From: Alphaproteobacteria bacterium
Lineage (GTDB): Bacteria; Pseudomonadota; Alphaproteobacteria; Micropepsales; Micropepsaceae
Reading direction: 5' to 3'
NCBI GenBank assembly: GCA_013140995.1
Contig: JABFRX010000032.1
Location: 1 to 61,298 of the forward strand
DNA length: 61,298 nt
The first letter of the stretch is position 1, and every line of letters begins with the position of its first letter. Positions 8,413-31,827 of the stretch are shown piece after piece. The translations under genes and the position numbers were made by a program. The notes beneath the pieces were generated by a model. It saw only the letters and a list, made by a program, of their open reading frames with translations. It had not been told where the DNA came from and searched no databases.

Positions 8413-8487
8413 GGCAGCGTAGCTCAGCGGTAGAGCAGGGGAATCATAATCCCTTGGTCGGCGGTTCAAATCCGTCCGCTGCTACCA
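8413..8487 (+). tRNA. tRNA-CAU (probably elongator tRNA-Met)
   Basis: A complete cloverleaf with encoded CCA. Acceptor GGCAGCG pairs with CGCTGCT. The D arm is GCTC-AGCGGTA-GAGC, the anticodon arm GGGGA-ATCATAA-TCCCT with anticodon CAT, and the T arm GGCGG-TTCAAAT-CCGTC. The first pair is G-U, not the unpaired C1-A72 of initiator tRNA, so it is not fMet. Elongator Met is favoured; a tRNA-Ile2 with lysidine at C34 would have the same gene anticodon and is not excluded. Confidence 0.93.
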
Positions 8488-17739: not shown

Positions 17740-17970
17740 GAATCTTACGGGAAGCGCGAAAAGAAAGAAAACCGATTGAACCACCAAGCACACCAAGAAC
17801 ACAAGAACACCAAAACGCAGTGGGCGATGAAGGGGTGCTGTCCGGCGCGAGCCGCTATTGCTGCGCGCTTCGGGCGCGGTAGGCAATCAGACTGGCCGGA
17901 GCAACTTGGTGAACTTGGTGCGTGGTTCAATTTTCTCCTTTTCGCGTCTTCGCGGCTTCGCGTGAGATTC
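17740..17970. repeat. Long inverted-repeat element A
   Basis: Two imperfect inverted arms of about 66-70 bp (17740-17805 and 17901-17970) flank a 95-bp centre. Both arms, read inward, begin GAATCT(T/C)ACG, continue through GAAGCGCGAAAAG-like purine blocks to TTGAACCAC, and end in ACCAAG repeats. The right arm contains the CACGCGAAG-CCGCGAAG-ACGCGAA unit series shared with elements B and C. It ends 5 bp from the merR stop codon. No transposase is present; it is probably a non-autonomous or REP-like repeat. Confidence 0.75.
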
Positions 17971-17974
17971 TTCT

Positions 17975-18412
17975 TCAGTGCCCGTGGTCGTCGGAGAGGC
18001 AGTGGCTGTGGGAGTGGTCGGCTAGGACTTTGATCACGCGGCATTCGGCGACGCGGCCATGGCGGCATTGGCGGACCATGCGTTGGAGTTCGCCACGCAG
18101 GCTGATCAAGCGCGTGATTTTTGCTTCCACGTCGGCGAGGACGTCGGTCGCCACGCGGTCGACGCGGGCGCAGGGCTGGTCGGGTTTGTCGACGAGGTGT
18201 AGGAGTTCACGGATCGCGTCGAGCGGAAACCCTAGTTCGCGCGCGTGGCGGATGAAGGCGAGGCGGTCGGCGTGTGCCTTCGCGTAGCGCCGTTGGCCGC
18301 CGTCGGTGCGTGCGGGCGCCGGCATCAAGCCTTCCTGTTCGTAGAAGCGGATCGTTTGAACTTTGGTCGCGGCGCGCTTGGCCAGCGCGCCGATGGTGAG
18401 GTCTTGCGCCAT
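17975..18412 (-). CDS. MerR-family heavy-metal-responsive regulator
   Basis: A 145-residue protein. The N-terminal winged HTH is LTIGALAKRAATKVQTIRFYEQEGL, then RYAKAHADRLAFIRHARELGF and a long dimerisation helix. Cysteines lie in DQPCARV (about residue 80) and in the metal loop VRQCRHGRVAECRVIKVL (about 113-122), as in ZntR/CadR/PbrR (CxxGx-CPI-like). The tail is His-rich (HSHSHCLSDDHGH). It likely senses Zn, Cd, Co or Pb and activates the divergent exporter through the 19-bp-spaced promoter between them. Confidence 0.9.
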   Translation of the reverse strand: MAQDLTIGALAKRAATKVQTIRFYEQEGLMPAPARTDGGQRRYAKAHADRLAFIRHARELGFPLDAIRELLHLVDKPDQPCARVDRVATDVLADVEAKITRLISLRGELQRMVRQCRHGRVAECRVIKVLADHSHSHCLSDDHGH

Positions 18413-18422
18413 TTATTCGCTC

Positions 18423-18453
18423 TTGAAGCTACAGCGACTGTAGCATGTAGGTT
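18423..18453 (+). promoter_or_regulatory. MerR-type 19-bp-spacer promoter with operator
   Basis: -35 TTGAAG (18423-18428), a 19-bp spacer and -10 TAGGTT (18448-18453). A perfect dyad GCTACAG-CGA-CTGTAGC (18428-18444) occupies the spacer. This is the layout of MerR-activated promoters, where the regulator untwists an over-long spacer. It faces the cation exporter, whose ATG is 25 bp downstream behind AAAGGAATC. Confidence 0.9.
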
Positions 18454-18477
18454 GGGCCGAGTGAAAGGAATCACCTG

Positions 18478-19131
18478 ATGGATTCGTGTTGCCCCGCGCC
18501 GCCGCCCAGCGCTTCGCCGGACTATCGGCGGGTGCTTTGGATTGCGCTTATCGTCAATGCCGCCATGTTTGCTGTCGAGGCGGGTGCGGGCCTTGCGGCG
18601 GGGTCGGTGTCGCTGCAGGCGGATGCGCTCGACTTTCTGGGCGATGCTGCGAACTATGGATTGAGTTTGTCGGTGTTGAGCCTTGCGCTCGTGTGGCGTG
18701 CGCGGGCGGCGCTGGTGAAGGGCGTCACCATGGGGCTGTTCGGGATTTGGGTCATTGGTGCTGCCGCCATGAACGTGCTCGGCGATGCGATGCCGCATGC
18801 GCCGACGATGGGCGCCGTCGGGTTCTTGGCGCTGATCGCGAATGTGGGCGTTGCGCTCATGCTTTATCGCTACCGCGAAGGCGACGCGAATATGCGGTCG
18901 GTCTGGCTTTGCACGCGCAACGACGCGATCGGCAACGCTGCGGTGATGGTGGCCGCGCTTGGCGTGCTCGGGACGGGGACGCTCTGGCCGGACATTGCGG
19001 TCGCCGCGGTGATGGCATCGCTCGCGCTTAGCGCGTCGTATCTCACGATCCGCAGCGCGTTGGCCGAACTAAACGGTGGTGCGGTCGCGCCCGGTGCACA
19101 TCGCGACCCCCACGCTCACCATCACGGATAA
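18478..19131 (+). CDS. Cation transporter (CDF-like heavy-metal exporter)
   Basis: A 217-residue membrane protein with six hydrophobic helices. The second helix carries LQADALDFLGDAANYGLSL, matching the D-xxx-D metal site of cation diffusion facilitators (ADxxHMLSDxxAL). The N-terminus has a CC pair and the tail is His-rich (HRDPHAHHHG), both plausible metal ligands. It is short for CDF (about 300), lacking the C-terminal cytoplasmic domain. A MerR-regulated promoter and an adjacent MerR gene support heavy-metal efflux. Confidence 0.85.
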   Translation: MDSCCPAPPPSASPDYRRVLWIALIVNAAMFAVEAGAGLAAGSVSLQADALDFLGDAANYGLSLSVLSLALVWRARAALVKGVTMGLFGIWVIGAAAMNVLGDAMPHAPTMGAVGFLALIANVGVALMLYRYREGDANMRSVWLCTRNDAIGNAAVMVAALGVLGTGTLWPDIAVAAVMASLALSASYLTIRSALAELNGGAVAPGAHRDPHAHHHG

Positions 19132-19136
19132 CGGTC

Positions 19137-19715
19137 ATGACGGCGCTTCTTTTGGGCTTGGTATTCGTCGCGGTGACGCTGGTGCGAAGCTTTTGGCTTT
19201 GGCACACCGATGGCGTGAATCCCTACGTCATCGATCATCGCGACCCGCTGTTTCGGTTTGTGGGGCAGGTGTTTGCGACCGTCGTTGGAGCGCTGATCGT
19301 CTACTGCTTGACCATCGCGATCCAGCCGGAGATGGAACAAGCGCTCGGCCTCATCACGTGGGCGAACGTGGATGGAACGCGCTGGGCCGGCGCGACGCTG
19401 ATGGCGACTGCAATCGTTTGGACGGCGTATGCGCAGTTTGCGATGGGCTCGTCGTGGCGCATTGGGATTCCCGAAGAGGCAACCGCGTTGCGTACGCACG
19501 GGCCGTTCGCTTTGTCACGCAATCCGATCTTTCTCGGGATGCTTGCGTTTGTCGCGGGTCTCACGATCTGGTCGCCGAGTGCGGTGACTCTCGCGCTTCT
19601 CGTTGCGACCTACATCTCGCTCGAAGTGCAAGTTCGCAGTGAAGAAGCGTTCCTCGAAGGCGCGCACGGGCAGTCCTATCGCGACTACCGCGCGCGGGTT
19701 CGGCGCTGGATCTGA
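19137..19715 (+). CDS. Isoprenylcysteine methyltransferase-like (ICMT/PEMT) membrane methyltransferase
   Basis: A 192-residue membrane protein with about five hydrophobic segments. The C-terminal half has the ICMT/PEMT signature: RTHGPFALSRNPIFLGML (about 121-138), then EVQVRSEEAFLEGAHGQSYRDYRARVRRW. In bacteria such proteins methylate small molecules, lipids or metals; the substrate is unknown. It begins 5 bp after the cation exporter stop, so it is likely expressed with it, perhaps in the metal response. Confidence 0.8.
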   Translation: MTALLLGLVFVAVTLVRSFWLWHTDGVNPYVIDHRDPLFRFVGQVFATVVGALIVYCLTIAIQPEMEQALGLITWANVDGTRWAGATLMATAIVWTAYAQFAMGSSWRIGIPEEATALRTHGPFALSRNPIFLGMLAFVAGLTIWSPSAVTLALLVATYISLEVQVRSEEAFLEGAHGQSYRDYRARVRRWI

Positions 19716-19721
19716 AGCGGC

Positions 19722-20381
19722 TTAAGCGACGGCGGCTTCGTCGCTCAAATGCGGTGCGAGGACGCTTGCCTGATTTAGAAACGTTTCGGCGGCGCGATCG
19801 AGGCGCTGGCGGGCCGCGAACAGCGACATGCGGGCGGCTTCGATCTCGTCGTTCGACGCGAACAGTTCCGACGGCGCTTTGAGTGCCAGGCCGCGTTCGC
19901 CTGCGACCAGCGTGATGTGGCCGATGGCGTGGCGCGGGTGGCCGCCGTCGGGCAGAACGACTTCGATCGAACCGCGATTGCCGTCGATCAAGTTCACTGC
20001 ATCGAACGTGGCGCCGCCGGCAACCGTGTCGATGCGCGAGCGCAGTTCTTCGTAGCGATCGGCGACCATGGCGCGTTTTGTGGCATCCGGATTCGACAGC
20101 GCTTCGGCCGTCAGGTCCAGCGCTTCAGAGAGGAAGTTGTGAATCGTGTCGATCGCGACCAGCGTGCCTTCGACCGTCGACACGGCGCGGGCGGCGGCTT
20201 CGGCGAGCGTGACAACCGCGTAGGACCCGCGCCGGGTCTGCCGCAGCGCGCGGTCGATGCCGGAGCGGATGTCCACGGGTTCGACGGGCGCCTCGATCAC
20301 GGGCTCTTCCTTCGGCGACAGCACGCGGCGCGCGTATTTGAACAGGTCTTGCGCTTCAAAGCGCTTTTGTTCGAACGACAT
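19722..20381 (-). CDS. Flagellin-like protein, orphan
   Basis: A 219-residue protein. After a charged N-terminus, residues about 55-135 resemble the flagellin D1 core: a helix with AISAAxx-like spacing (VSTVEGTLVAIDTIHNFLSEALDL), AEALSNPDATKRAMVADRYEELRSRIDTVAG, then GATFDAVNLIDGNRGSIEV, close to flagellin's 'ATFNGVNLLDG'. The C-terminal helix ends RLDRAAETFLNQ. Canonical flagellin ends (MxSxNTN start, LL-R end) are missing, and it begins MSFEQKRFEAQDLF. It may be a flagellin-related regulator or minor component; similarity is judged by eye. It stands alone. Confidence 0.5.
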   Translation of the reverse strand: MSFEQKRFEAQDLFKYARRVLSPKEEPVIEAPVEPVDIRSGIDRALRQTRRGSYAVVTLAEAAARAVSTVEGTLVAIDTIHNFLSEALDLTAEALSNPDATKRAMVADRYEELRSRIDTVAGGATFDAVNLIDGNRGSIEVVLPDGGHPRHAIGHITLVAGERGLALKAPSELFASNDEIEAARMSLFAARQRLDRAAETFLNQASVLAPHLSDEAAVA

Positions 20382-20484
20382 GGTAGTTCCCCACTTCCCG
20401 GCAACTTTGCGGTCGAGAATAGCCGCCCAGGGGTTAGGGAACGCTTTACCGCACGTGCCAGATTGCGCTTAAAGCTTCGTTGCC

Positions 20485-20973
20485 ATGACCACGCGATTTG
20501 GCCGGATCGTCAGTCCGGCGCTCCACGCCTATCACCGCGCCGCCAAACTGGCGCGCATCGGGCGCTGGCCCTTAACGATTGGTGTACGGATCATCGTGCG
20601 CGACGCGGACGCGCGCGTGCTGCTCGTGCGGCATACGTATGCGCCGGGGTGGCATTTCCCAGGCGGGGCGGTGGACAAGCGGGAGGCGGCGGCCGATGCG
20701 GCCGTGCGGGAGCTTCGGGAGGAGGCGTTGATCGAAGCGATCGCGCCGCCGCGGCTTGTCGGCGTGTATTTGAGCCTGACGCAAAACAAGTCGGACCACA
20801 TCCTGTTCTTCGAGGCTGGCGAATGGCGTCCGGCTGCCGGCAAAGCGCGGCCGCTTGAGATCGCCGAGACGGGGTTCTTTCCCGCCGATGCGCTGCCGGA
20901 AGGCACGACCGGCGCGACGCGGCGGCGGCTTGCGGAGCTTAGCGGCGAGGCGGCGCAGAGCGCGGCGTGGTAA
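20485..20973 (+). CDS. NUDIX hydrolase
   Basis: A 162-residue protein with the Nudix box GGAVDKREAAADAAVRELRE followed by EALI (about residues 57-80). The box fits Gx5Ex7REUxEExGU, except that the last Gly is Ala. RHTYAPGWHFPGG precedes it. It hydrolyses some nucleoside-diphosphate-linked compound; the substrate is not evident. No strong ribosome site precedes ATG 20485. It converges on the amidohydrolase gene. Confidence 0.85.
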   Translation: MTTRFGRIVSPALHAYHRAAKLARIGRWPLTIGVRIIVRDADARVLLVRHTYAPGWHFPGGAVDKREAAADAAVRELREEALIEAIAPPRLVGVYLSLTQNKSDHILFFEAGEWRPAAGKARPLEIAETGFFPADALPEGTTGATRRRLAELSGEAAQSAAW

Positions 20974-20976
20974 ACT

Positions 20977-22446
20977 TCAGTGCGGCGCCGGTTGCGGCTC
21001 ATTCGGATCCAAGTTGGATGAATAGGAACCGGACATAGCGCGTGCGACTGTTCCAAAGACGAAGCGATAAAGCGTGGCGTGGAAGTGGACTTTGTAACGC
21101 TCGACCCACTTGTCGACCGTTGCCCGGTCGTAGCGCCGGCCCTGGGCGAACAACACCCGCCACTCCCGTACTGCACCGAGCTCTGCGGTCGGGTCGGCCG
21201 GCAACAGCAATAGGTCGGCGCGCATGCCGGGGGCGATAACCCCTGTGTTGGCAGAATCTATACGCCGCGCGTTGACGCGTGTCGCCGCCTCAAGGGCTGC
21301 TTCCTTGTTTCCATAGGCGGTTGCGAGTTCGTCGACCTCTCGCAGCAGCGCGTCGCCCGGGATCGTGTAGGGCATCAGCACATCGGTGCCAGCCAAGACG
21401 TCGATTCCCATGTCGCGCGCCGCGCGTGCGATTTCGCGCGACTTTGCGATGGAGGCCAGTTGCGCGTCGATTTCCGCTTGCGTTTTCGGATGTCCCACGA
21501 TGTTGGGCCACGCGATCGTCCACATTTCGGGGAGGAGGCTTGCCGCTGGCGGCGGGGGAAAGCGCTTCGGGTCCGACGCGCTGAGACGCATGGCGAGATT
21601 GATGATGGTCGGGGTGAGCGATGCGTCCTGCTGCTTCACGAGCTTCAATGCTGCGTCGATTTCCTCAGCGCTCATGGCGGCGATGTCGGCAGAGTCCACA
21701 TCGTTGTCCCAACGCGGCTTCTTGGTCAGGTAAGGCAGGCCCGTGAGGTGCTGTGCGTCGAAGCGGCTGATGTTGGCGAGACCAACGAGGTGCGGGACGT
21801 GGCCTACCATCTCAATGTTCTTCGCGGTTGCGGCTTCGCTGACGGCCCGAAACGTCGCGGCGTCGACGTGGTTGTAGGTCTTGATGCAGTCGACGCCGGT
21901 TGCTGCCAATTTTTCGATGGCGGCTTTGCCTTCGTCGGGTGTTAGGACCTGGAGTGCCGAGGGCCAGCCGGGGTCCTTGCCGTCCAACACCGGACCACAG
22001 CGATAAACGTGCGGGCCGATTTGTTCGCCGGCGTTGATTGCCTTTGCCCAAGCCGCGACGCTTTCGTCGGATTGGCCGACGTCGCGAATGCTCGTGACGC
22101 CGTGTGCGAGATAGAGCAGGGCAAAGAGCTGCTGGTTGCCGAGCGCGATTTGCGGCGGTGTGTGGACATGCGCGTCGATCAGACCGGGGATGGCGTAGCG
22201 TCCGGGACAGATCGGCGGCGGGTCGGTGTCGCGTGTGGGTCTAACCTCAACGATTTTCCCGGCGCGAACGACGATTGTCTGGCCGGGCGTGCGTGACTGA
22301 CCTGGATTGATCACCACGACGCCGGTGATCAGCGCGTCGTCCTGGGGCGGCACGTCAAGCGCCGGTGGCACGAGCAACAAGACTATGCCCACGGCGAGCG
22401 CCGCGATGGACAGCAGCGCGATAGCGGCTATGCGCAGAAAGAACAT
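20977..22446 (-). CDS. Membrane-anchored or exported amidohydrolase
   Basis: A 489-residue metal-dependent hydrolase of the imidazolonepropionase-like amidohydrolase group. A hydrophobic N-terminus (MFFLRIAAIALLSIAALAVGIVLLL) serves as signal or anchor. Metal ligands: HxH in GLIDAHVHTPP (about 98), CIKTYNHVD (carboxylated Lys position), GHVPH (about 218), QHLTG, and Asp in LAGTDVLMPY (about 357). The substrate is unknown; such exported enzymes often act as dipeptidases or carboxypeptidases. ATG 22446 sits behind GGAGGGG. An in-frame GTG ten codons earlier is possible. Confidence 0.85.
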   Translation of the reverse strand: MFFLRIAAIALLSIAALAVGIVLLLVPPALDVPPQDDALITGVVVINPGQSRTPGQTIVVRAGKIVEVRPTRDTDPPPICPGRYAIPGLIDAHVHTPPQIALGNQQLFALLYLAHGVTSIRDVGQSDESVAAWAKAINAGEQIGPHVYRCGPVLDGKDPGWPSALQVLTPDEGKAAIEKLAATGVDCIKTYNHVDAATFRAVSEAATAKNIEMVGHVPHLVGLANISRFDAQHLTGLPYLTKKPRWDNDVDSADIAAMSAEEIDAALKLVKQQDASLTPTIINLAMRLSASDPKRFPPPPAASLLPEMWTIAWPNIVGHPKTQAEIDAQLASIAKSREIARAARDMGIDVLAGTDVLMPYTIPGDALLREVDELATAYGNKEAALEAATRVNARRIDSANTGVIAPGMRADLLLLPADPTAELGAVREWRVLFAQGRRYDRATVDKWVERYKVHFHATLYRFVFGTVARAMSGSYSSNLDPNEPQPAPH

Positions 22447-22518
22447 GGCCCCTCCGCCGTTCCGAGGGAAGTCCACACCAGAATGCGGCTCGGTGCAAAT
22501 CGCACCAATGCCCGGTGG

Positions 22519-23946
22519 TTAAAGCGGCGCGTATTTGTCTTTCCAGGGGCGTGCTTGTTCGAGTTGGGCGGCGAGGCGGAAGAGTGTGGCTTCGTCGCCG
22601 TAGCGGGCGGTGAACATCGTGCCGATCGGCACGCCTGCCGCGTTCCAGTGAAGGGGGATGTTTGTCGAGGGTTGGCCGGTTAAGTTGTAGATGCCGGTGT
22701 AGGGGATGAACGAGATCATGTCCTTGAACATTTCGCCGAGGTCGGTGCGCCCCATGTCCAGCACGCCGACTTTGAGCGGCGGCGCGGCGCAGGTGGGTTG
22801 AAGGATGACGTCGTAGTTCTCCATGAAGGTCGCGACGGTGCGGCCGAGCGCGTGGAGCGTGTTCATCGCGCGGGCGTAGGCGCTTGAGTCCGTCTTGCGG
22901 GCGTTCTCGACGCGGAACCAGGTGGCGCGTTCGACGTCTTCGGCGCGGGCTTTGCGGCCAAGTGCTTCCGCGGCTTCGTCAACGGTGAAGGCGACGTTCG
23001 CGTTGATGACGACGCCTTGGGCTGCCATGGTGTCCATGCCGTTGATCGAAGGCGCTGCTTCTTCGACGATGTGGCCGAGGCTTTCGCAGAGTTTGGCGGC
23101 GTCGTGCACGGCGGCGAGCGCGTCGGGATGTACGTCGGCGGGGATCGCGGGTTTCGTCCAGAGCGCGATGCGCAATCTTCCGGGCGCCATTTTCGTTTCG
23201 TCGAGGAAGGTGCGCGCGGGCGGCGGGGCAGGATAGGGATCGCCGGGTGCTGGTCCGTGTGTTGCATCGAGGAGCGCCGCGCTGTCGCGCACGCTGCGCG
23301 AGACGACGTGGCCGACGGAGGCGCCGCCCCAGCCTTCGCCGCGCTTCGGCCCCATCGGCGTGCGGGCGCGCGTGGGCTTCAGGCCGAAGAGGCCGCAGCA
23401 GCTTGCCGGAATGCGGATCGAGCCGCCGCCGTCGGTCGCATGGGCTGTCGGAATGATGCCAGCGGCGACCGCTGCGGCGGCGCCACCGCTCGAGCCGCCT
23501 GCGATGTGTTCGAGGTTCCACGGGTTGCGGGTGGCGCCGAACATACGCGACTCGGAGGAGGGGCTTAGGCCCAGTTCGGGCGAATGGGTTTTACCGAAGA
23601 TGACGAGGCCCGCCTTCTTGCAGCGCTCGACGAACGTCGTGTCGGCTTGGGCGACGGTCTCGCGGTAGAGGCTGAGGCTGCCCGTCGTAACGGTTCCTTT
23701 GAGTTGTACGCCCAAGTCTTTAAGCAGGTAGGGCACGCCGGCGAGCGGGCCTTGTGGCAGGCCGTCCTTCAGTTGCTTGCGCGCGATGTCTTCATGCTCG
23801 AGGACGATGGCGTTGATCTTGGGATTCACCTCGCGGGCGCGGGCGAGGGCCGTGTTCAGCAGTTCCTCCGGCGTGACCTGTTTCGACTTCATAAGCTCGC
23901 CAAGTGAGAGGGCGTCGTGTTTGCGGTAATCGGCGAAGCTGAGCAT
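22519..23946 (-). CDS. Amidase (amidase-signature family)
   Basis: A 475-residue enzyme. The catalytic triad Lys / cis-Ser / Ser is seen in GVPYLLKDLGVQ (Lys near 78), and the AS motif NLEHIAGGSSGGAAAAVAAG (Ser residues about 148-154) continues to ATDGGGSIRIPASCCGLFGLKPTR. The length is typical. It hydrolyses amides, but the substrate is not predictable. The long open frame upstream to 24240 is not coding: homologues start at the MLSFADYRKHDALSLGELM helix (ATG 23946). It is divergent from a small exported protein. Confidence 0.9.
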   Translation of the reverse strand: MLSFADYRKHDALSLGELMKSKQVTPEELLNTALARAREVNPKINAIVLEHEDIARKQLKDGLPQGPLAGVPYLLKDLGVQLKGTVTTGSLSLYRETVAQADTTFVERCKKAGLVIFGKTHSPELGLSPSSESRMFGATRNPWNLEHIAGGSSGGAAAAVAAGIIPTAHATDGGGSIRIPASCCGLFGLKPTRARTPMGPKRGEGWGGASVGHVVSRSVRDSAALLDATHGPAPGDPYPAPPPARTFLDETKMAPGRLRIALWTKPAIPADVHPDALAAVHDAAKLCESLGHIVEEAAPSINGMDTMAAQGVVINANVAFTVDEAAEALGRKARAEDVERATWFRVENARKTDSSAYARAMNTLHALGRTVATFMENYDVILQPTCAAPPLKVGVLDMGRTDLGEMFKDMISFIPYTGIYNLTGQPSTNIPLHWNAAGVPIGTMFTARYGDEATLFRLAAQLEQARPWKDKYAPL

Positions 23947-24050
23947 GAGATTCCTTGCGCGTGACGTGATCGTGAACGGCCGTTCATGTGCGAGACAGGT
24001 GGGCGAGCCTAGATTATCCTCGTTCATTGGCATAGCCGGAGGGTTCCCCC

Positions 24051-24404: not shown

Positions 24405-24405
24405 C

Positions 24406-25542
24406 TCACCAGGCAGCCCGGAGGATTTCGAGTACGTCGGACGCGCCGGTGATCGGGCGCGGGTTGGACAGCACGACCGGATGTTTGGCGGCTTCTTCGG
24501 CGATAGCCGGGAGTTGTTGCTCCTTGATGCCGACGTCGTGTAGGCGCGCAGGCAACCCCAAGTCGTTGATCAATTCGGCGACGGCGTCGGCGAGGTTCGT
24601 GCGGTTCATCGCGGTGGCGAGCGTTCGTTGACGATCGGCTGTCGTCTTCTCGTTCCAGCGCAGCACTTGGGGGAGCACCACGCAGCTTGAGTGGCCGTGG
24701 TGGACGCCGTAGCGGCCGCCTAGGACGTAGCCGATGCCGTGGCTTGCGCCGCTGCCTGCGCGTGAGGAATTCACGCACGCTAGGTAAGCGGCCATTTGGC
24801 TTTCGATGCGGGCGAACGGGTCGCCGGGGACTTCCTTCGTGCGGCGGAGCGATGTCGCGAACAGGCCGAGCGCGTGGGTGAGGCCTGCGTCGTAAACCGG
24901 GTTCGCGCCTTTCGCGAGATAGCCTTCGCAGCAGTGGTCCACGCCGCGAATCGCGCTTGAGAGCCAGAGCCATTCGGGTGTGAGCGCACCGAGTGCCGGG
25001 TCGTAGATCACGACGCGGGGCACGAGGAATGGGTTCATGAAGCCGAGCTTTTGACCCCGGCCCGCGTCCGTGCCGCCGCCGGTTGGCGTGACTTCGGCGC
25101 CGGACAGTGTCGTTGGGACCGCGATTTGGCGGATCGGCGCCGGCTTCATGTGGCGCTTGTTCGCGAGTGCGAGCAACTGGTCCATCGTTTCGACGTTTTC
25201 TGAGAGCGCGAGTTGGACGACCTTCAGCCCATCGATGATCGAACCGCCGCCGACGCCGACGAGGAGGTCGGCTTTCGCTTCGCGCGCCGCGTGGACGGCT
25301 GCGAGTACGCCGTCGAGCTTCGCGTGTTCCGTGATGCCGTCGTAGATCGCAGCAATCTTGCTCCCTAGAGACGTTGCGATCAGCGAGATTGCGCCGGTTT
25401 GCATGTGCAGCGTCTTCGACGTCGCGACGAACACGCGTTTCGCGCCCAGGCGCTCGACCTCGTCGCCCAGAACTTCGCGTACGGATTTGCCAAAGTGGAC
25501 GCGCTCTTGCGGAAGCGCGTCGTAGGTGAAGGTTTTGCTCAA
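24406..25542 (-). CDS. Iron-containing alcohol dehydrogenase / maleylacetate reductase-like protein
   Basis: A 378-residue group III dehydrogenase. The NAD region reads LVGVGGGSIIDGLKVV (about 91-106), then IAVPTTLSGAEVTPTGGGTD. The metal region reads GVDHCCEGYLAKG, ASHGIGYVLGG and YGVHHGHSS. The usual HGxxH pair reads HGIGY here, so one metal-ligand His is Tyr, which weakens the Fe-ADH prediction. Maleylacetate reductases have related deviations. The start is TTG at 25542, overlapping the SDR stop as TTGA, which implies translational coupling. A much longer frame upstream is the SDR read out of phase. Confidence 0.75.
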   Translation of the reverse strand: MSKTFTYDALPQERVHFGKSVREVLGDEVERLGAKRVFVATSKTLHMQTGAISLIATSLGSKIAAIYDGITEHAKLDGVLAAVHAAREAKADLLVGVGGGSIIDGLKVVQLALSENVETMDQLLALANKRHMKPAPIRQIAVPTTLSGAEVTPTGGGTDAGRGQKLGFMNPFLVPRVVIYDPALGALTPEWLWLSSAIRGVDHCCEGYLAKGANPVYDAGLTHALGLFATSLRRTKEVPGDPFARIESQMAAYLACVNSSRAGSGASHGIGYVLGGRYGVHHGHSSCVVLPQVLRWNEKTTADRQRTLATAMNRTNLADAVAELINDLGLPARLHDVGIKEQQLPAIAEEAAKHPVVLSNPRPITGASDVLEILRAAW

Positions 25543-26450
25543 ATGGGGTCCCAGCCGAAGACGGAGGTCGTGGCGCCACTGTCGTACATCATCGTTTTCA
25601 TCGCCGGGAAGGCGTGGTTTGCGATCGTGTCGGGCGTCCAGCCTTCGATTTTGGCCATGCCGCGCAAGGGCCGCGACTGCGACATCAGAAAGATTTCGTT
25701 GCCGCGGGCGACGAAGATTTGGCCGGTGACCTCTCTGTTCGCGCAGAGCGCGATCGCGAGTTGGGCGACCTGGTCGGCGCGCATGTGGTTCTTCATGCGC
25801 TCCACGCGCTTGGCGGAGGCTTCGTCCTTTATCGGGATCGTCGCGATCATGCGCGACCAGGCGAACGGCGCGATGATGTTCGAGCGGACGTTTTTCTGCA
25901 CACCTTCCATGGCGATGATGCGCGAGAGGCCCGCGACGCCCATCTTTGCGGCCGCGTAGTTTGCTTGGCCGATATTGCCGATGATGCCGCTGGTCGAGGT
26001 GAACAGGACGTAGGCGCCGTCTTGCTGTTCGCGGAAATGTTCGATTGTCGCGCGGCATACGTTGTAGGCGCCGTTCAGATGCACGTCGATCACAAGATCC
26101 CAATCCTGATCGGTCATCTTGTGGAACATCGTGTCGCGCAAAATGCCTGCCGGATTGATGACGGCGTGCAGGCCGCCGAAAACGTCTTTCGCTTGCTCAA
26201 ACATGCGCTTCACCGCTGGGCGGCTGGTCACGCTATCGGAGTTCGCCACGGCCTCACCGCCCGCGCCTTTGATTTCTCGCACGACCATCTCCGCCGGGCC
26301 GGCCGAGCCCTCGTCCCCGCCAGACGTGCCGCCGCCTAGGTCGTTCACCACGACCTTTGCGCCTTCGCGCGCGGCCAGTAGCGCACATTCCTTGCCTATG
26401 CCGTTGCCGCCGCCGGTTACGAGCACGACCTTGCCGGTCAAGATTCCCAT
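25539..26450 (-). CDS. Short-chain dehydrogenase (hydroxyacyl-CoA dehydrogenase type)
   Basis: A 303-residue SDR. NAD site VVLVTGGGNGIGKECALLAA (residues 9-28), DLGGG, and active site Ser-Tyr-Lys in TSTSGIIGNIGQANYAAAK (about 148-166). The long loop with NDLGGGTSGGDEGS resembles the N-terminal domain of peroxisomal multifunctional enzyme type 2 (3R-hydroxyacyl-CoA dehydrogenases). It likely oxidises a hydroxyacyl-CoA or similar compound. ATG 26450 follows AGGGAGGAA. The Fe-ADH-like gene overlaps its stop, so the two enzymes are probably one operon. Confidence 0.88.
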   Translation of the reverse strand: MGILTGKVVLVTGGGNGIGKECALLAAREGAKVVVNDLGGGTSGGDEGSAGPAEMVVREIKGAGGEAVANSDSVTSRPAVKRMFEQAKDVFGGLHAVINPAGILRDTMFHKMTDQDWDLVIDVHLNGAYNVCRATIEHFREQQDGAYVLFTSTSGIIGNIGQANYAAAKMGVAGLSRIIAMEGVQKNVRSNIIAPFAWSRMIATIPIKDEASAKRVERMKNHMRADQVAQLAIALCANREVTGQIFVARGNEIFLMSQSRPLRGMAKIEGWTPDTIANHAFPAMKTMMYDSGATTSVFGWDPI

Positions 26451-26575
26451 GGCATTCCTCCCTAGTCGACGTTGCGGCGCACGTTAACCGCAGGGCGCGG
26501 GGAGATTCCAGGGCGATCTTGCGCGCCTGCTATAAGGAGCGGCGCTATCTAAGCGAATCGAACGGGTCGAGGATA

Positions 26576-27124
26576 ATGAACACGCACCACCTTCTGCAGA
26601 CGTTGGAACACAAACTTGGCCTAAAGAACGACCCGGCCTCGGAGCGCAAGCGGCGCATCCTGAAACATGTCGCGGAGCGAACCGTCGTCACGCGCGACCT
26701 CAGCCAAGAGGAGGGCGGCAAGGATACCTTTGGCGAGTGGCTTGCGGACAAGGTGGCCGAGTTCGGGGGCTCTTGGACCTTCATAATGATCTTCATGGGG
26801 TTCCTATTCTCTTGGGCGATCTTGAACACGATCATCCTGCTGACCAACGCGGTCGATCCTTACCCCTTCATATTCTTGAACTTGTTGCTCTCGATGCTGG
26901 CCGCCTTGCAGGCGCCGATCATCATGATGTCGCAGAACCGGCAGTCGACGAAAGACCGGCTGACCGCACAGCACGACTACGAGGTGAACCTGAAGGCGGA
27001 GCTCGAAATCATGGCGTTACACGAAAAGGTCGATCTCATGCGGTCCGATCAACTGTGCCAGATTTTGGCGAAGCACGACGAGCAGATCAAACTGTTGACC
27101 GACCTCGTCAAGGCGAAAGGGTAG
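26576..27124 (+). CDS. DUF1003 membrane protein
   Basis: A 182-residue protein. A soluble N-terminus is followed by the DUF1003 core: DKVAEFGGSWTFIMIFMGFLFSWAI (first helix) and YPFIFLNLLLSMLAALQAPIIMMSQNRQ (second helix), then a charged helical tail ending LLTDLVKAKG. The function is unknown; the family is widespread and possibly involved in envelope or ion stress. The start at ATG 26576 is preceded by TCGAGGAT. The GNAT gene starts 4 bp after its stop. Confidence 0.9.
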   Translation: MNTHHLLQTLEHKLGLKNDPASERKRRILKHVAERTVVTRDLSQEEGGKDTFGEWLADKVAEFGGSWTFIMIFMGFLFSWAILNTIILLTNAVDPYPFIFLNLLLSMLAALQAPIIMMSQNRQSTKDRLTAQHDYEVNLKAELEIMALHEKVDLMRSDQLCQILAKHDEQIKLLTDLVKAKG

Positions 27125-27128
27125 CGCG

Positions 27129-27659
27129 TTGGCCGTCATCCGCCGCGAGGCCTCAAGCGACACCGCCGTCGCGGACGCCATCGTTGCGGCCGCGTTCGGG
27201 CCGGGGCGGTTTGCGAAGAGCGCGTACCGGCTGCGCGAAGGGGTCGGGTGCGTGGCCGAACTTTCGTTCGTCGCTGAGGAGGGCGCGCGGATCGTCGGCA
27301 CGGTGCGCTATTGGCCGGTGTTGATCGGCGGGAAGGCGGCGTTGATGCTTGGGCCGATCGCGATCGTCGCTGACCGGCAGGGGCAGGGCATAGCGCTCGC
27401 GCTGATGCAGACGACGCTGGCGGAGGCAAAGAAGATCGGCCATCGCGCGGTCATTCTGGTAGGTGACGAGCCCTATTATGGCCGTGCGGGGTTCGCGCGC
27501 ATTCAACCGGTCGGACGGATTACGATGCCGGGGCCGGTGGACTACGCGCGGCTGCTCGGGTTGTCGCTTGTGGACGGCGCGCTTGAGGCGATGGCCGGCG
27601 AAGTGCGGAAAGCGCGCATCACCGCGACTGTTGCTGCGGCTGGGTGCGCACTGGGTTAG
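27129..27659 (+). CDS. GNAT-family N-acetyltransferase
   Basis: A 176-residue protein with the acetyl-CoA motif A: LGPIAIVADRQGQGIALALMQTTL (about 77-100), followed by ILVGDEPYYGRAGFARI. This resembles the YhbS-like GNAT group. The substrate is unknown. The start is TTG 4 bp after the DUF1003 stop; no better start lies upstream, and translational coupling is likely. It is followed by a short convergent gap to marC. Confidence 0.85.
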   Translation: MAVIRREASSDTAVADAIVAAAFGPGRFAKSAYRLREGVGCVAELSFVAEEGARIVGTVRYWPVLIGGKAALMLGPIAIVADRQGQGIALALMQTTLAEAKKIGHRAVILVGDEPYYGRAGFARIQPVGRITMPGPVDYARLLGLSLVDGALEAMAGEVRKARITATVAAAGCALG

Positions 27660-27727
27660 AAAGTGAACGCGGAGCACAGAAATGCAGGGATCGGAAGATC
27701 GGCACATCTGATCCTCGTGTTCCGCAT

Positions 27728-28366
27728 TCAGATTCCAAACACGTTTTTGATGCCGTCGATGACGAACTGCGCGGCGAGCGCGGCCAGGATGATGCCGAAG
27801 ATGCGGGTGACCATGGCGGCGATCGTGGCGCTGATCATGTGAGAGAATTGGGCGGCGAGCCAGAAGGCGCCGAACGTGAGAAGGAGGTTCACGGCGACAC
27901 CTGCGAGTACGGCGGTGCGGCCGGGCCAGGCGTTGTATTGGGCGAACATCAACATGATTGAGGCGATGGAGCCGGGACCTGCGATCAGCGGGATTGCGAG
28001 CGGGAAGACGGAGATGTCTTCGTGTTCGCGGGGGTGGGCGTGGCGTTCCTCGATCACCTTTGCGTTGCGGGCCTCGCGGCGTTGCGTTCGGGTTTCGAAC
28101 AGCATGTCGATTGCGATCAGAAAGAGCAGGAGGCCGCCCGCAATGCGGAAGGCATCGAGGCTGACGTGCAGCTTGTCGAGCAACCATTCGCCGCCGAAGG
28201 CGAAGCCGAGCAGGATCAGGCTCGCGACGAGTACGCTTTTGCCCGCCATCCTGTGACGCCAGGCGACCGGCATATTTTGCGTCAGCGTCGCGAACATCGG
28301 GATGACGCCCGGCGGGTCGATGACGACGAAGAAAGTAACGAGCGAGGCGAGGAAGATTTCGAGCAT
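27728..28366 (-). CDS. MarC-family integral membrane protein
   Basis: A 212-residue protein with six hydrophobic helices. Family marks: LVTFFVVIDPPGVIPMFATLT (helix 1), AFRIAGGLLLFLIAIDMLF, and FPLAIPLIAGPGSIASIML. MarC/YchE proteins have no firmly established transport activity. ATG 28366 is right for the family. The open frame extends another 25 codons upstream, but those codons lie in repeat element B, and no good ribosome site is visible between the element and the ATG. Confidence 0.9.
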   Translation of the reverse strand: MLEIFLASLVTFFVVIDPPGVIPMFATLTQNMPVAWRHRMAGKSVLVASLILLGFAFGGEWLLDKLHVSLDAFRIAGGLLLFLIAIDMLFETRTQRREARNAKVIEERHAHPREHEDISVFPLAIPLIAGPGSIASIMLMFAQYNAWPGRTAVLAGVAVNLLLTFGAFWLAAQFSHMISATIAAMVTRIFGIILAALAAQFVIDGIKNVFGI

Positions 28367-28375
28367 CAAAAGAGT

Positions 28376-28596
28376 TTCACGCAAAGCCGCGAAGACGCGA
28401 AGAAAGAAGAAAGGATATCTCACACAATGGATCAATGACACAATGAAGGAAGCGAAGAACGGTGCCGTGAAGGAAGCGAGGAACGGTGCCGTGCGAGCCC
28501 TCGTGCCGCAGGCACGAAATCGACGTCAGATTGGCGCTTCGCGCCGACGCCGGAGTCCATTGTTTCATTGTGTGAGGATTTCTTCTTCTTCGCATC
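28376..28596. repeat. Long inverted-repeat element B
   Basis: The outer left arm TCACGCAAAG-CCGCGAAG-ACGCGAAG (28377-28402) shares its unit series with elements A and C. An inverted pair follows: GACGCGAAGAA...GAAGAAA...CTCACACAATG on the left (28394-28428) and the same motif series, imperfectly, on the right (28558-28596, read in reverse). Inside are two hairpins, TCGTGCC-GCA-GGCACGA (28501-28517) and GGCGC-TTC-GCGCC (28533-28545), the latter shared almost exactly with element C. The element occupies most of the 305-bp gap between marC and the hydrolase, starting 10 bp from the marC ATG. Confidence 0.75.
28444..28491. repeat. 24-bp tandem duplication inside element B
   Basis: Two adjacent 24-nt copies (28444-28467 and 28468-28491), beginning TGAAGGAAGCGA and ending GAACGGTGCCG, differ by one A/G. 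They lie between the left arm and the first inner hairpin of element B and are absent from element C. Confidence 0.85.
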
Positions 28597-28671
28597 GTGG
28601 GCATTTCTGGTGGCGCGGGGCTGGTGGCGTGGTAGAAGGCGGGACCGCTATTTCACCAAAGGAACCCGTCC

Positions 28672-29706
28672 ATGGCTTTGAAGATCACGAACGACCCCCG
28701 TATCGATCCGCGCATTAAGGCGATGATGGGTGCAGCGCCGGATATCGTGCCGGCGGGGAACGTTGCATCGCGCGAGGCGTTGCTTGCGGAGGAGAACTCT
28801 GGCGCAGCGCAAGCGCGGATGGCGATGGTCAAGATGATGCTGCAGGCGTGCGACAGCGAAGAGGTCGCGCCGTCGAAAGGGTTGAAAATCACGACGGAGA
28901 CGTTCCGCTCCGAACCCGACGGCAACGAGATCAAAATTCAGTACATCCGGCCTGATACGAGCGAGCGTCTGCCGTGCGTCGTTTATCTGCACGGCGGGGG
29001 TATGATGCACTTCTCGTGCTTCGACGGCATGTACAAGGCGTGGGGGCGCATCATCGCGGGTCAAGGCGTCGCGGTCGCGATGGTCGACTTCCGCAATTGT
29101 GCGACGCCGTCGTCGGCGCCGGAGGTGGCGCCGTTTCCGGCAGGGTTGAATGACTGTGTGTCGGGTGTGCGGTGGGTAGCGTCGCATGCCGACCGGCTCA
29201 ACATCGATCCGAAGCGCATCGTCGTCGCCGGTGAAAGCGGCGGCGGTAACTTGACGCTCGCCACGGGCCTCAAGCTCAAAAAGGACGGCGACATCGGGAT
29301 CATCAAGGGGCTCTATGCGCTCTGTCCCTATATCGCGGGGCAGTGGCCTTTGCCGCAGAACCCGTCGTCGACGGAGAACAATGGAATCCTGCTTGAGTTG
29401 CACAACAATCGCGGCGCGATGGCCTATGGCATCGAGGCATTCAAGGCGAAAAACCCGCTCGCGTGGCCTGCGTTCGCGGGCGACGACGATGTTAAGGGTC
29501 TGCCGCCGACCGTGATCCACGTCAACGAATGCGATCCGCTGCGCGACGAGGGCATCGGGTTCTATCGCCTGCTGATCAAGAACGCGGTGAAGGCGCGCTG
29601 CCGCCAATCGATGGGTACGACGCACGGCGTCGAGCTGTTCGCGATCGCCGCGCCCGACATCAGTTACGACACAGCGCGGGATATTGCGGCGTTCGTGAAG
29701 GGGTAA
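28672..29706 (+). CDS. Alpha/beta hydrolase (HSL-like esterase)
   Basis: A 344-residue hormone-sensitive-lipase-type hydrolase. Oxyanion motif VVYLHGGGMMHFS (about residues 103-115), nucleophile elbow VVAGESGGGNLTLA (Ser about 186), acid in VNECDPLRDEGIGF (about 287), and histidine in MGTTHGVELF (about 316). The extended N-terminus (about 80 residues) forms the cap. The natural substrate is unknown; short-chain esters are typical. ATG 28672 follows AAAGGAACCC. Element B fills the upstream gap. Confidence 0.88.
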   Translation: MALKITNDPRIDPRIKAMMGAAPDIVPAGNVASREALLAEENSGAAQARMAMVKMMLQACDSEEVAPSKGLKITTETFRSEPDGNEIKIQYIRPDTSERLPCVVYLHGGGMMHFSCFDGMYKAWGRIIAGQGVAVAMVDFRNCATPSSAPEVAPFPAGLNDCVSGVRWVASHADRLNIDPKRIVVAGESGGGNLTLATGLKLKKDGDIGIIKGLYALCPYIAGQWPLPQNPSSTENNGILLELHNNRGAMAYGIEAFKAKNPLAWPAFAGDDDVKGLPPTVIHVNECDPLRDEGIGFYRLLIKNAVKARCRQSMGTTHGVELFAIAAPDISYDTARDIAAFVKG

Positions 29707-29718
29707 GGCGAGAGGAGG

Positions 29719-30957
29719 CTAGATCGTCGCCTGGACGACGGCCTTCAGCCGCTCGGCGAGCGAGAACGGATCGTCGGTGAAGTCGGCGTCGATCCACCAG
29801 GCTTCGACTTCGGCGAGCACTTTGCCGACGAGCGGACCGTGCGGCACGCCGGCGGCCAGGACATTGGCGCCTGTCACGGGAAACACCGGCCGGACCCAAC
29901 TGTCGGCGAGCGCGAGAAGTGCGCGCCACTGATAGATGTTCGACGCCTTGGGGTCTTCGGCCCATTTGAGGCGCACCCAATCTTTGAACCGCGGCACGCC
30001 GAAGTGGTAGAGCGCGCGCCGAACTTCCAAGATCGAAAGGTACGGGACGATCTTCGTCGGCTCCCCCAGCATGTCTGAAAGCCGGTCGCGATCGTCGTTC
30101 GAGAGCCGCCAGCGCGCGGCGATTTCGCTTGCCTGCGGTCCGTCGCCGAGCAACGCGCCAAGGCGAAGAAGTCCATCAGCGGCGAAGAAGGTGTCGGCGT
30201 CGATTTCGCACAGACGCTGAAATCGCGCGAACTTGAGTTCGCCGGGTAGCACTTCGCCGAGCACGCCGGACGCCGCCATCGTGCGCAGCACCGGGATCGG
30301 ATGCTCGGCTCCCATCAGCTTCAGCATTTCCTTCTGTACGCGTTCGCCCGACAGCGTCTTGATCTGTGAGCGAGCCGCCGCACACGCGGTCAAACCGTCC
30401 GCGTCGATCTCGCCTTTGCTGTACCAAGCGTGAAAGCGGAAGAGCCGTAGGATACGCAGATAGTCTTCCGCGATCCGCCGCGCCGGATCGCCGATGAACC
30501 GCACCCGGCGCGCCTGCAGATCGGCGATCCCGCTGATGAGGTCGAACACCTGTCCTGCTTGGTCGGCGTAGAGCGCATTCATCGTGAAGTCGCGGCGCTG
30601 TGCGTCTTCGGCCCAGTCGGTACTGAACGACACCGTCGCGCGCCGCCCGTCGGTGGAGACATCGCGCCGCAGCGTTGTGATCTCGAACGGTTTTTTGTTC
30701 GTGACCGCCGTGATCGTCCCGTGCTCGATGCCGGTCGGCACCGCTTGCATTCCCGCGGCGAGCAGGCGGCGGGTTACGTCGTCCGGCAGTAGCGGCGTGG
30801 CGATATCGATGTCCTCGACCGGCGCGCCGAGGAGCGCGTTGCGCACGCACCCGCCGACGAACCGCGCCGCGCCGCCGTTCGCGCATAGCGCGTCCATCAC
30901 CGCGCGCGTTTCCGGCGCGTTGAGCCAAGGTTGATTGCTAATCGTTGGCGTCGTCAT
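29719..30957 (-). CDS. cca: CCA tRNA nucleotidyltransferase
   Basis: A 412-residue class II nucleotidyltransferase that adds or repairs the 3' CCA of tRNAs. The head has ARFVGGCVRNALLGAPVEDIDIAT with the DxD metal site (about 49-51), then RRDFTMNALY (motif B) and RIAEDYLRILRLFRFHAW (motif D). The rest is the all-helical body. The only tRNA in this window already encodes CCA, so a repair role is consistent. It is the last gene of the DUF1285-nudix-cca series, 3 bp after the nudix stop. Confidence 0.94.
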   Translation of the reverse strand: MTTPTISNQPWLNAPETRAVMDALCANGGAARFVGGCVRNALLGAPVEDIDIATPLLPDDVTRRLLAAGMQAVPTGIEHGTITAVTNKKPFEITTLRRDVSTDGRRATVSFSTDWAEDAQRRDFTMNALYADQAGQVFDLISGIADLQARRVRFIGDPARRIAEDYLRILRLFRFHAWYSKGEIDADGLTACAAARSQIKTLSGERVQKEMLKLMGAEHPIPVLRTMAASGVLGEVLPGELKFARFQRLCEIDADTFFAADGLLRLGALLGDGPQASEIAARWRLSNDDRDRLSDMLGEPTKIVPYLSILEVRRALYHFGVPRFKDWVRLKWAEDPKASNIYQWRALLALADSWVRPVFPVTGANVLAAGVPHGPLVGKVLAEVEAWWIDADFTDDPFSLAERLKAVVQATI

Positions 30958-30960
30958 GCT

Positions 30961-31584
30961 TCAGCCGTACAGCCGCTCGTAGAGATTGACCAGTATCCCC
31001 GCCGTCGCGCCCCAAATGTAATGCCGCTCGTACTGCATCGCAAAGTATCGGCGTTCGCGGCCTTGCCAGGTGGCGGTCTCTTGCTTGTGATTATGCCGAT
31101 CCATCAGATACGCAAACGGCACCTCGAACGCTTCGGCGACTTCCGACGCATCGATCTTGAGCTCGAAACCATCGCGCACCAAGGCGACGAACGGCTGAAT
31201 TGCGAACCCCGTCCCGGTCTCGTAGCAGTCAAGCTCGCCGCGCACCTCGACAAACGAGCGCGGCAGTCCGACTTCTTCCTCGGTCTCGCGCAGTGCGGCT
31301 GCGATGGCGCCGTCATCCTCATCCCCAACGCGTCCGCCGGGAAAGCTCACTTGTCCCGCGTGCCGTGCCAAGTGATCCGCCCGCCGCGTGAACAGCACGC
31401 TCAAACCTGCGGAACGTTCGATGATCGGAATGAGCACCGCTGCCGGCCGCAATACGCGCTCCGGTGCATGCTCGTCACGCATGCGCGGATTGAGATCGAA
31501 GTCTCCACGCTTCGGCGTGGGATGCGAGCCGAACGCAAGCCGCTCGCCGATGCGACGCCGCAAATCAGTATCGCTCAAACTCAC
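30961..31584 (-). CDS. NUDIX hydrolase, CoA pyrophosphatase type
   Basis: About 207 residues. The Nudix box is GGRVGDEDDGAIAAALRETE followed by EEVGL (about 101-124 in the longer frame), preceded by RRADHLARHAGQVSFPGG, the CoA-binding UPF0035 pattern (LxxHxGQxxFPGG). It should split CoA or acyl-CoA into 4'-phosphopantetheine and ADP. I choose GTG 31584 with GAGGTGGGC upstream. The open frame continues 17 codons further, but those codons are partly inside element C. Between DUF1285 and cca. Confidence 0.88.
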   Translation of the reverse strand: MSLSDTDLRRRIGERLAFGSHPTPKRGDFDLNPRMRDEHAPERVLRPAAVLIPIIERSAGLSVLFTRRADHLARHAGQVSFPGGRVGDEDDGAIAAALRETEEEVGLPRSFVEVRGELDCYETGTGFAIQPFVALVRDGFELKIDASEVAEAFEVPFAYLMDRHNHKQETATWQGRERRYFAMQYERHYIWGATAGILVNLYERLYG

Positions 31585-31618
31585 GATGCCCACCTCGGCA
31601 TTCGAGTGAAATAAGTCG

Positions 31619-31815
31619 TCACGCCAAGACGCCAAGACGCAAAGAAGAAAATCTCACACGAAGCAACGAAGAAACGAAGTGGATGCAACCCGCGCGCCGC
31701 AGGCGCGCAATCCGGCATCCAGCGGCGCTTCGCGCCGAAGGCAACAATGACCTCGTTCCTCCGTTGCTTCGTGTGAGACACTCTTTCTCCTTTGCGCCTT
31801 GGCGTCTTGGCGTGA
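31619..31815. repeat. Long inverted-repeat element C
   Basis: Arms 31619-31676 and 31754-31815 are inverted copies: TCACGCCAAG-ACGCCAAG-(A/G)CGCAAAG, then GAAAxTCTCACACGAAGCAACG and an (A/G)A-rich end. Besides a 4-nt insertion, most arm differences are A/G transitions. The centre holds an inverted pair GGATGC/GCATCC around hairpin GCGCGCC-GCA-GGCGCGC (31692-31708), and a second hairpin CGGCGC-TTC-GCGCCG (31723-31737). The element lies between DUF1285 (stop 31828) and the nudix start (31584), splitting an otherwise tight minus-strand gene series. Confidence 0.85.
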
Positions 31816-31827
31816 GAGCTTTTTCTC

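Follow-up and report, generated by a model that had tools for sequence, protein, structure and literature searches.

Repetitive extragenic palindromic (REP) sequences and REPINs are non-autonomous intergenic palindromes whose trans-acting partner gene, RAYT (REP-associated tyrosine transposase), lies elsewhere in the genome. Bacterial miniature inverted-repeat transposable elements (MITEs) such as Correia/NEMIS, ERIC, and RUP are also intergenic, with inverted repeats and hairpin transcripts. Rickettsia palindromic elements are mobile palindromes of about 150 bp that insert inside genes, and we know of no mover for them. The intervening sequences (IVSs) of rRNA that carry an S23p or four-helix-bundle open reading frame (ORF; PF05635, TIGR02436) are small and sporadic, with one short ORF, inverted arms, and a predicted RNA hairpin. 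Here, we describe three nested palindromes, elements A, B, and C, in a 61,298-nucleotide contig (JABFRX010000032.1, hereafter the window) from an alphaproteobacterium of the Micropepsaceae (assembly GCA_013140995.1). Their arms are shared with loci of the GxxExxY gene family (PF13366, PDDEXK_3; TIGR04256), and some of these arms have gene-bearing partners in the same genome, so A to C most likely represent non-autonomous relatives of GxxExxY elements that are stacked one within the other.

A to C resemble each of these described systems in part. They share with REP sequences and REPINs their non-autonomous, intergenic, palindromic character, but their partner is a nuclease-like protein instead of a Y1 transposase, and their arms consist of tandem syllables. 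They are similar to bacterial MITEs in size, inverted repeats, intergenic location, and predicted hairpin transcripts, but they come without a transposase partner found or a readable target duplication, and their arms vary yet stay paired within each element. Unlike the Rickettsia elements, which are named in excerpts of PMC10969869, A to C lie between genes, and their families include gene-bearing members. IVSs replace the loops at helix tips, and Coxiella IVSs carry heptameric repeats beside the ORF, according to excerpts of PMC4990558, which also call the functionality and origin of rRNA IVSs unclear; A to C similarly nest concentrically. However, PF05635 elements have 7-nt syllables and another protein family, while A to C are gene-less, with a period of 8 to 9, lack an S23p ORF, and lie between protein genes and not in an rRNA gene, as judged from ORFs, Pfam matches, and an Rfam scan of the window in which a tRNA gene (8413 to 8484) is the sole match.

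Three intergenic elements consist of nested palindromes

A sequence-only reading of the window had placed three inverted-repeat elements with shared ACGC-N-AAG arms at 17740 to 17970 (A), 28376 to 28596 (B), and 31619 to 31815 (C), and we find all three there, between genes. Each comprises two concentric palindromes. The CGCNAAG-type arms form the outer one, and inside it sits an element with other arms of its own (TTGAACCACCAAG in A, TCTCACACAATG in B, and TCTCACACGAAG in C). The arms are built from tandem units of 8 to 9 nt, which we call syllables, with the form CRCNNAG in most. One outer arm has decayed in A (left) and in B (right), and C is the cleanest of the three. The GGCGC-TTC-GCGCC and GCC-GCA-GGC hairpins reported for B and C are indeed present in these two only, the core of A being different.

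A search of the window for inverted repeats of at least 18 nt with a partner within 400 nt found 36 (25 listed). The outer repeat of C (I1, 31610 to 31650 and 31784 to 31824; 41 nt, 85% complementary) is the longest, and its inner repeat (I3, 31645 to 31680 and 31750 to 31785; 36 nt, 83% complementary) is third longest, tied in length. The sequence-only reading also expected long transcript hairpins. The predicted RNA folds have 79 pairs in A (−96.4 kcal/mol, z −4.47), 75 in B (−89.7 kcal/mol, z −5.17), and 81 in C (−126.8 kcal/mol, z −12.0), and for each element none of 200 dinucleotide shuffles reached so low an energy. The features are as follows, without strand unless one is given; L numbers denote loci, and R1 is a covariance model trained on 16 copies of the inner element, of which this genome supplied ten.

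17740 to 17763: A, outer left arm, decayed, GAATCTTACGGGAAGCGCGAAAAG; one syllable fewer than the right arm
17776 to 17930: A, inner element, arms TTGAACCACCAAGCACACCAAG and GGTGCGTGGTTCAA, 9-nt syllables; left arm matches GxxExxY loci L154 and L151 (Caulobacterales metagenome-assembled genomes)
17938 to 17970: A, outer right arm; its reverse complement contains TCACGCGAAGCCGCGAAGACGCG; shares 23 identical nt with the arm of GxxExxY locus L069
28378 to 28412: B, outer left arm, CACGCAAAGCCGCGAAGACGCGAAG; from arm comparison with GxxExxY flanks
28418 to 28577: B, inner element, arms TCTCACACAATGGATCAATGACACAATG and CATTGTTTCATTGTGTGAGGA; R1 match, E 7.6e-23 (training sequence)
28501 to 28517: B, core hairpin 1, GTGCC-GCA-GGCAC type
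28533 to 28545, + strand: B, core hairpin 2, GGCGC-TTC-GCGCC; 21 genome copies versus 1 in the control
28579 to 28593: B, outer right arm, decayed, TTCTTCTTCTTCGCA
31619 to 31648: C, outer left arm, TCACGCCAAGACGCCAAGACGCAAAGAAGA; part of I1; matches 25 of 26 nt of an arm of congener GxxExxY locus L057
31652 to 31778: C, inner element, arms TCTCACACGAAGCAACGAAGAAACGAAG and CCGTTGCTTCGTGTGAGA; I3; R1 match, E 1.5e-28 (training sequence)
31692 to 31708: C, core hairpin 1, GCGCGCC-GCA-GGCGCGC
31724 to 31736, + strand: C, core hairpin 2, GGCGC-TTC-GCGCC
31784 to 31815: C, outer right arm; from the inverted-repeat search and arm comparison with GxxExxY flanks

The arms of A to C recur at GxxExxY loci

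PF13366 is present in 18 of the 61 genomes of our kinship set and has six matches at five loci in this genome. A to C themselves are not among these places and are gene-less. The flanks read in the kinship set reveal that many GxxExxY genes sit inside syllable palindromes; a full element is about 0.5 kb long and comprises inverted syllable arms, often small GC hairpins, and one GxxExxY gene. We compared seven stretches of A to C (one arm from each of the six layers, with both outer arms of C and without the decayed arms) with the flanks of 107 loci and 196 distal control flanks, excluding GxxExxY loci L064, L065, L071 to L073, and L077. All seven match GxxExxY flanks above the best of the 196 control flanks. 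The matches include the exact 23 nt shared by the outer arm of A and L069, as well as the 25 of 26 nt shared by the outer arm of C and L057, while the inner arm of B, with its CAATG syllables, has clear matches at one locus, L075.

Gene-bearing and gene-less copies of the same arm type also coexist in this genome, whose contigs we denote by C and a number. The gene-bearing copy on C109 shares its arm type with gene-less copies on C200, C24, and C310, that on C12 with those on C260, C110, and C10 and with the inner arm of element C, and that on C250 with those on C319 and C178. The arm on C181 pairs with those on C196 and C45 and with the outer arms of A and B. A same-genome gene-bearing partner is shown among the A to C arms only for the inner arm of C (C12) and the outer arms of A and B (C181). 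The GxxExxY gene on C181 lacks its N-terminal part and lies between CGCG[GA]AG arms, and it looks like a half-way stage from a full to a gene-less element. Taken together, that A to C are relatives of GxxExxY elements is well supported, and the gene-less copies likely arose through gene loss. At five loci (L058, L060 to L062, and L294), the C-terminal end of the GxxExxY protein is encoded by the right arm (e.g., PSASPRLRVN), indicating that arm and reading frame overlap.

GxxExxY genes lie within syllable palindromes across phyla

To extend the comparison, we took the best 80 of at least 581 confirmed GxxExxY candidates from named genomes of many phyla, which by record title include Bacteroidota, Chloroflexota, Planctomycetota, Acidobacteriota, Verrucomicrobia, and Cyanobacteria. 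Two loci with short flanks (L175 and L198) were dropped, leaving 78 loci and 140 controls from the same loci, and a score of 24 corresponds to the 95th percentile of the controls. Inverted flanks reach this score at 61 of the 78 loci versus 8 of 140 controls, and they reach 40 at 38 loci versus none of the controls. For 54 of these 61 loci, the left arm fits best to a period of 8 (27 loci), 9 (21), or 10 (6). CRCNNAG syllable pairs in the right orientation occur in the left flank of 53 loci, in the right flank of 61, and at both ends of 45, compared to 13 and 14 of 78 for pairs facing the wrong way and 11 and 15 of 500 distal 300-nt blocks per strand. The left flank finds its best match among all 78 in its own right flank for 34 loci and ranks it in the top three for 51. 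Protein similarity correlates with arm similarity (r 0.19; 0 of 2000 permutations) across the 57 loci that remain when those with a flank score below 28 are left out.

A strong CGCNAAG excess (at least 15 over control) occurs in 8 of the 61 kinship genomes, and GxxExxY is present in 7 of these 8 (all but congener G007) versus 11 of the other 53, with a Fisher p of 5e-4 that is not corrected for kinship and rests on a cut-off picked after the counts were known. Two full elements lie at sites that are short in another species. In Sphingomonas parapaucimobilis (L297, NZ_CP155749.1), a complete GxxExxY element with TCACGCGAAGGCGCGAGGACGCGAAG arms separates fabD from fabG, which are only a short spacer apart in S. 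paeninsulae. In Bacteroides finegoldii, one separates radA from the gene that follows, and the corresponding stretch of Parabacteroides distasonis is 13 nt long. These Sphingomonas and Bacteroides between-species sites are too diverged for a target duplication to be read. A tblastn search of 72,556 plasmid records with the C12 protein returned seven matching records. We found no description of GxxExxY palindrome elements among the papers listed by searches of an open-licence library, which is not proof of their absence from print, and six syllable strings had no match there.

GxxExxY is a predicted Cas4/RecB-like nuclease

GxxExxY proteins are about 120 to 140 amino acids long. An AlphaFold2 model built from 60 aligned sequences reached a pLDDT of 94.7, and its best solved match in Foldseek is SSO0001 (probability 0.99, E 2e-3, TM about 0.42 to 0.45), followed by LHK-Exo and lambda exonuclease; a sequence search of solved structures gave no match at E up to 1. 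We take all three proteins to be PD-(D/E)XK nucleases and SSO0001 to be a Cas4. Residues E28, D68, E78, K80, and Q92 are invariant in all 60 sequences, and Y96 is present in 59. This E...D...ExK...QxxxY set is the RecB/Cas4-type nuclease pattern. The predicted fold and the residue set together suggest that GxxExxY is a Cas4/RecB-like PD-(D/E)XK nuclease, albeit with superfamily-level similarity and, unlike those nucleases, encoded inside palindromes at most loci examined. In excerpts of published work, one CRISPR-adjacent gene is annotated as cas4 or as GxxExxY depending on the pipeline (PMC8934634), GxxExxY/PF13366 appears as an expanded family in Arctic algae (PMC9756366), and the genome table of the algal virus CpV-BQ1 includes a GxxExxY gene (PMC12085832).

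A gene-less subfamily is multi-copy and variable, and element C is absent from orthologous sites

The elements have further copies both in this genome and in related ones. Exact matches to CGCNAAGNCGCNAAG number 14 + 14 in the 4.04-Mb assembly versus 4 + 1 for a reversed-pattern control. By eye, 24 of the 28 lie within palindromes, the exceptions being one inside an ORF (window position 26355), two that look coding-like (C13 and C287), and a lone arm (C319:11184). The core hairpin GGCGCTTCGCGCC has 15 + 6 genome copies versus 1 in the control. R1 finds 52 matches over both strands of this genome, with at least 20 distinct places among the matches listed; a palindrome is counted on each strand, and the copies used for training are bound to match. 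It also finds matches in nine of ten congeners (78, 45, 35, 35, 20, 9, 7, 4, 1, and 0), where the high counts are possible underestimates because 95 candidates were scored per genome, and in 1 of 26 genomes outside the genus. This distribution indicates that the gene-less subfamily occurs almost exclusively in the genus and that its copy number varies.

Both flanks of element C were found in eight of the ten congeners, and none of the eight has a syllable pair between them. The best C-arm scores at these orthologous sites are 14 to 24, compared to 54 between C's own arms, and C is absent from all eight. The orthologous site in congener G009 (L123, G009:C141) holds a different palindrome (GTCATCCCGGAAG...), suggesting that the spot may take insertions repeatedly.

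Both arms of an element change together. The 20-bp arm helix of the 16 gene-less inner elements is paired in 96.7% of cells, and the arm types match on both sides of each element, for example, ACGAAG in one and ACAATG or ACGATG in another. Across the whole structure, there are 39 doubly changed cells versus 15.7 in shuffled data (0 of 500 as high) and a covariation score of 0.225 versus 0.109 (0 of 500), while slid pairings give at most six cells; these shuffle figures are not probabilities because the 16 sequences are related.

Nesting suggests a possible insertion into existing hairpins

We assembled 27 elements from matches to C and to R1, hence not a random set; C123 and C286 were judged by eye only. 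Six have no outer arms, and two (C260 and C310) were set aside as their "outer" match merely extends the same arm. Each of the remaining 19 carries outer arms distinct from its inner ones, and the left and right gaps between the two differ by at most 8 nt in 18 of them. Outer and inner arm types combine in several ways, so one frozen composite cannot account for all of them, although the TTGAAACGCC type with gaps of about 40 nt may be one lineage.

We consider it moderately probable that A to C are non-autonomous, gene-less members of a class of small mobile elements whose full members bear GxxExxY and which would be moved via a hairpin by this nuclease. Our best reading of how they move is mobilization driven by the nuclease through the hairpin, with insertion at hairpin tips. 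A GxxExxY element would lose its gene and become a gene-less copy, with C181 as an intermediate. The arms would extrude as a hairpin or cruciform, and the GxxExxY nuclease of the same element or of a relative would recognize and process them. Host repair would then re-insert the freed hairpin, with the apex of a hairpin already present as the preferred site, and such apex insertion would yield a nested structure resembling the 23S rRNA IVSs at helix tips. In operons, RNase III cutting of the transcribed hairpin, as in IVSs, would lower the cost of insertion. Both the movement and the nuclease as its agent are inferred.

Several observations weigh against this reading. No movement was observed. 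Seventeen of the 78 wider-set loci, among them a Methanothrix-labelled (archaeon) record, have no clear inverted flanks. Congener G007 (88% complete) has 20 R1 matches yet no GxxExxY match, and R1 matches correlate weakly with GxxExxY within the genus (Spearman 0.43, p 0.18, n = 11). This genome has only one GxxExxY locus out of five, C12, that looks intact; in C109, K replaces the catalytic E, and the others are partial. Between the C181 arm and C's outer arm, the score of 22 stays below the 26 that shuffles reach. Gene-less and gene-bearing elements have core hairpins that resemble one another without being identical, which leaves simple internal deletion unproven. Two covariation measures are weak, with 9 pairs changed on both sides versus 6.5 (18 of 500 shuffles) and 22 further pair types versus 21.5 (263 of 500). 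The Foldseek likeness is at the superfamily level, with no match reaching E 0.001 and TM about 0.4, and the protein-arm correlation could partly reflect host ancestry. Finally, a target-site duplication at C is unreadable, the congener flanks being 69 to 79% identical.

Alternative explanations

The arms could instead be an RNA device, a hairpin that RNase III removes from operon transcripts, with GxxExxY as a selfish passenger and copying by another host or element enzyme. The neighboring genes were named from ORFs and Pfam matches. A lies between the 3' end of a MerR gene and the 5' end of a methyltransferase gene, and C lies between the 3' end of a DUF1285 gene and the 5' end of a NUDIX gene, all four on the minus strand; this same-strand setting, shared by the full elements of Sphingomonas (fabD-GxxExxY-fabG) and Bacteroides (radA-GxxExxY-next gene), fits an RNA device, as do the co-varying arms. 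RNase III cuts Coxiella IVS RNA (excerpts of PMC4990558) and also Correia elements (excerpts of PMC10969869). However, B sits between divergent genes, at the 5' end of marC and next to an alpha/beta hydrolase gene, and an RNA device leaves unexplained why syllable type tracks protein family and why arm likeness tracks protein similarity. On balance, we find this explanation doubtful, though worth serious consideration.

The sequence-only reading had likened the elements to REPs or MITEs. The part of this comparison that stands is their multi-copy nature, shared arms, non-autonomous appearance, and, for C, absence in congeners; the gene-bearing partner that we found, in contrast, encodes GxxExxY and not a transposase, and none of the four Y1 genes of this genome is bordered by these arms. 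That reading would have fallen if the elements had no further copies; such copies exist in this genome and in congeners. An origin as ordinary MITEs, with the transposase copy of their insertion sequence absent from the assembly or window, would fit the length of 200 to 230 bp, the terminal inverted repeats, the many copies, and the draft state of the genome (319 contigs). However, the same arms flank GxxExxY genes across phyla, and GxxExxY is nuclease-like and no transposase. Moreover, transposase-bound ends have a fixed sequence, whereas these arms drift while left and right stay matched. We consider ordinary MITEs improbable.

Static regulatory hairpins such as terminators, alike by chance or drift, would explain why strong hairpins adjoin gene ends but not the multi-copy family with shared arms and core, the nested combinations, or the absence of C at the orthologous sites of eight congeners, and we deem them very improbable. 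Least credible of all are REP/REPIN elements moved by a RAYT, which the palindromic, intergenic character of the elements and the four Y1 genes of this genome might suggest, given that none of the four Y1 loci is bordered by A to C arms, three are flanked by strong inverted repeats unrelated in sequence, the Y1 genes have no syllable pair close by (one is at L303:421, about 1 kb off), and the best arm scores are 15 to 25 over 3.2 kb versus a control maximum of 19 to 24 per 300 nt. Two of these Y1 genes, L302 (G000:C95) and L303 (G000:C110), are bordered by their own inverted repeats (GGGAGCGCGGGCGTCCCGCCCGC and CTGGGACCGCCGGCTTCCAGCCGGC), which are a separate REP-like family.

Other inverted repeats in the window

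The window also contains a long, apparently unrelated palindrome at 47420 to 47535 (CGTCATGGCCGGGCTTAACCCGGCC; 37-nt arms, 92% complementary, 42 nt apart) and an inverted repeat at 4824 to 4937 with arms of 33 nt that are 79% complementary.

Four-helix-bundle genes lie within heptamer palindromes

A second small protein family shows a comparable arrangement. PF05635 occurs in 10 of the 61 kinship genomes and in 61 of 398 genomes of the phylum. Inverted flanks are present at 37 of 41 PF05635 loci, two of which lie in 23S rRNA, versus 5 of 79 controls, and at a score of at least 30, they are present at 25 of 41 (with L256, score 39, uncounted) versus none of the controls. The best period is 7 in 33 of 36 loci with inverted flanks, a count that does not include L256. 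An additional set from cyanobacteria-, Bacteroidota-, Rhodocyclales-, and Akkermansia-labelled genomes, which has no control and excludes L273, L278, and L279, scores at least 24 at 15 of 17 loci. The period of 7 for the four-helix bundle, against mostly CRCNNAG with a period of 8 to 10 for GxxExxY, indicates that the syllable grammar follows the protein.

The two rRNA loci, L045 (G008:C186, a congener) and L046 (G048:C20), are four-helix-bundle genes in heptamer palindromes inserted in 23S rRNA at Escherichia coli positions 1157-1159 to 1185, a stretch that we take to be helix 45. Their position agrees with the IVS site at helix 45 described in excerpts of PMC4990558. Outside rRNA, PF05635 genes (L231 to L260 and L261 to L280) are mostly found in inverted heptamer arrays, such as six copies of GGCAGTA. 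These arrays may relate to the heptamer repeats of Xanthomonas and Nostoc; excerpts of PMC4692102 describe the Xanthomonas repeats as occurring in inverted pairs and state no link to such elements. Membership of A to C in the four-helix-bundle class was also considered and dropped, as PF05635 has no match in this genome and the arms differ.

We tentatively propose, as something rather less than probable, that GxxExxY elements and S23/IVP elements are two branches of one unrecognized superclass, "syllable palindromes," in which one small protein, either a Cas4/RecB-like nuclease or a four-helix bundle, recognizes short syllables in tandem and transfers a hairpin to the loops of others, rRNA helix tips and other elements among them. 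If true, this superclass would explain nested intergenic palindromes and rRNA IVSs by one transposase-free mechanism, and it would perhaps also cover the dispersed heptamer repeats of cyanobacteria and xanthomonads. If confirmed, a one-protein nuclease element that targets hairpin loops would move in an unusual way. Genomes of many phyla have annotated GxxExxY and "four helix bundle" proteins to which no role is assigned, and their placement within palindromes whose syllables are specific to the protein suggests a testable function for both. Our analysis connects orphan intergenic palindromes with a gene that can be identified and places the IVSs of rRNA in a wider class.

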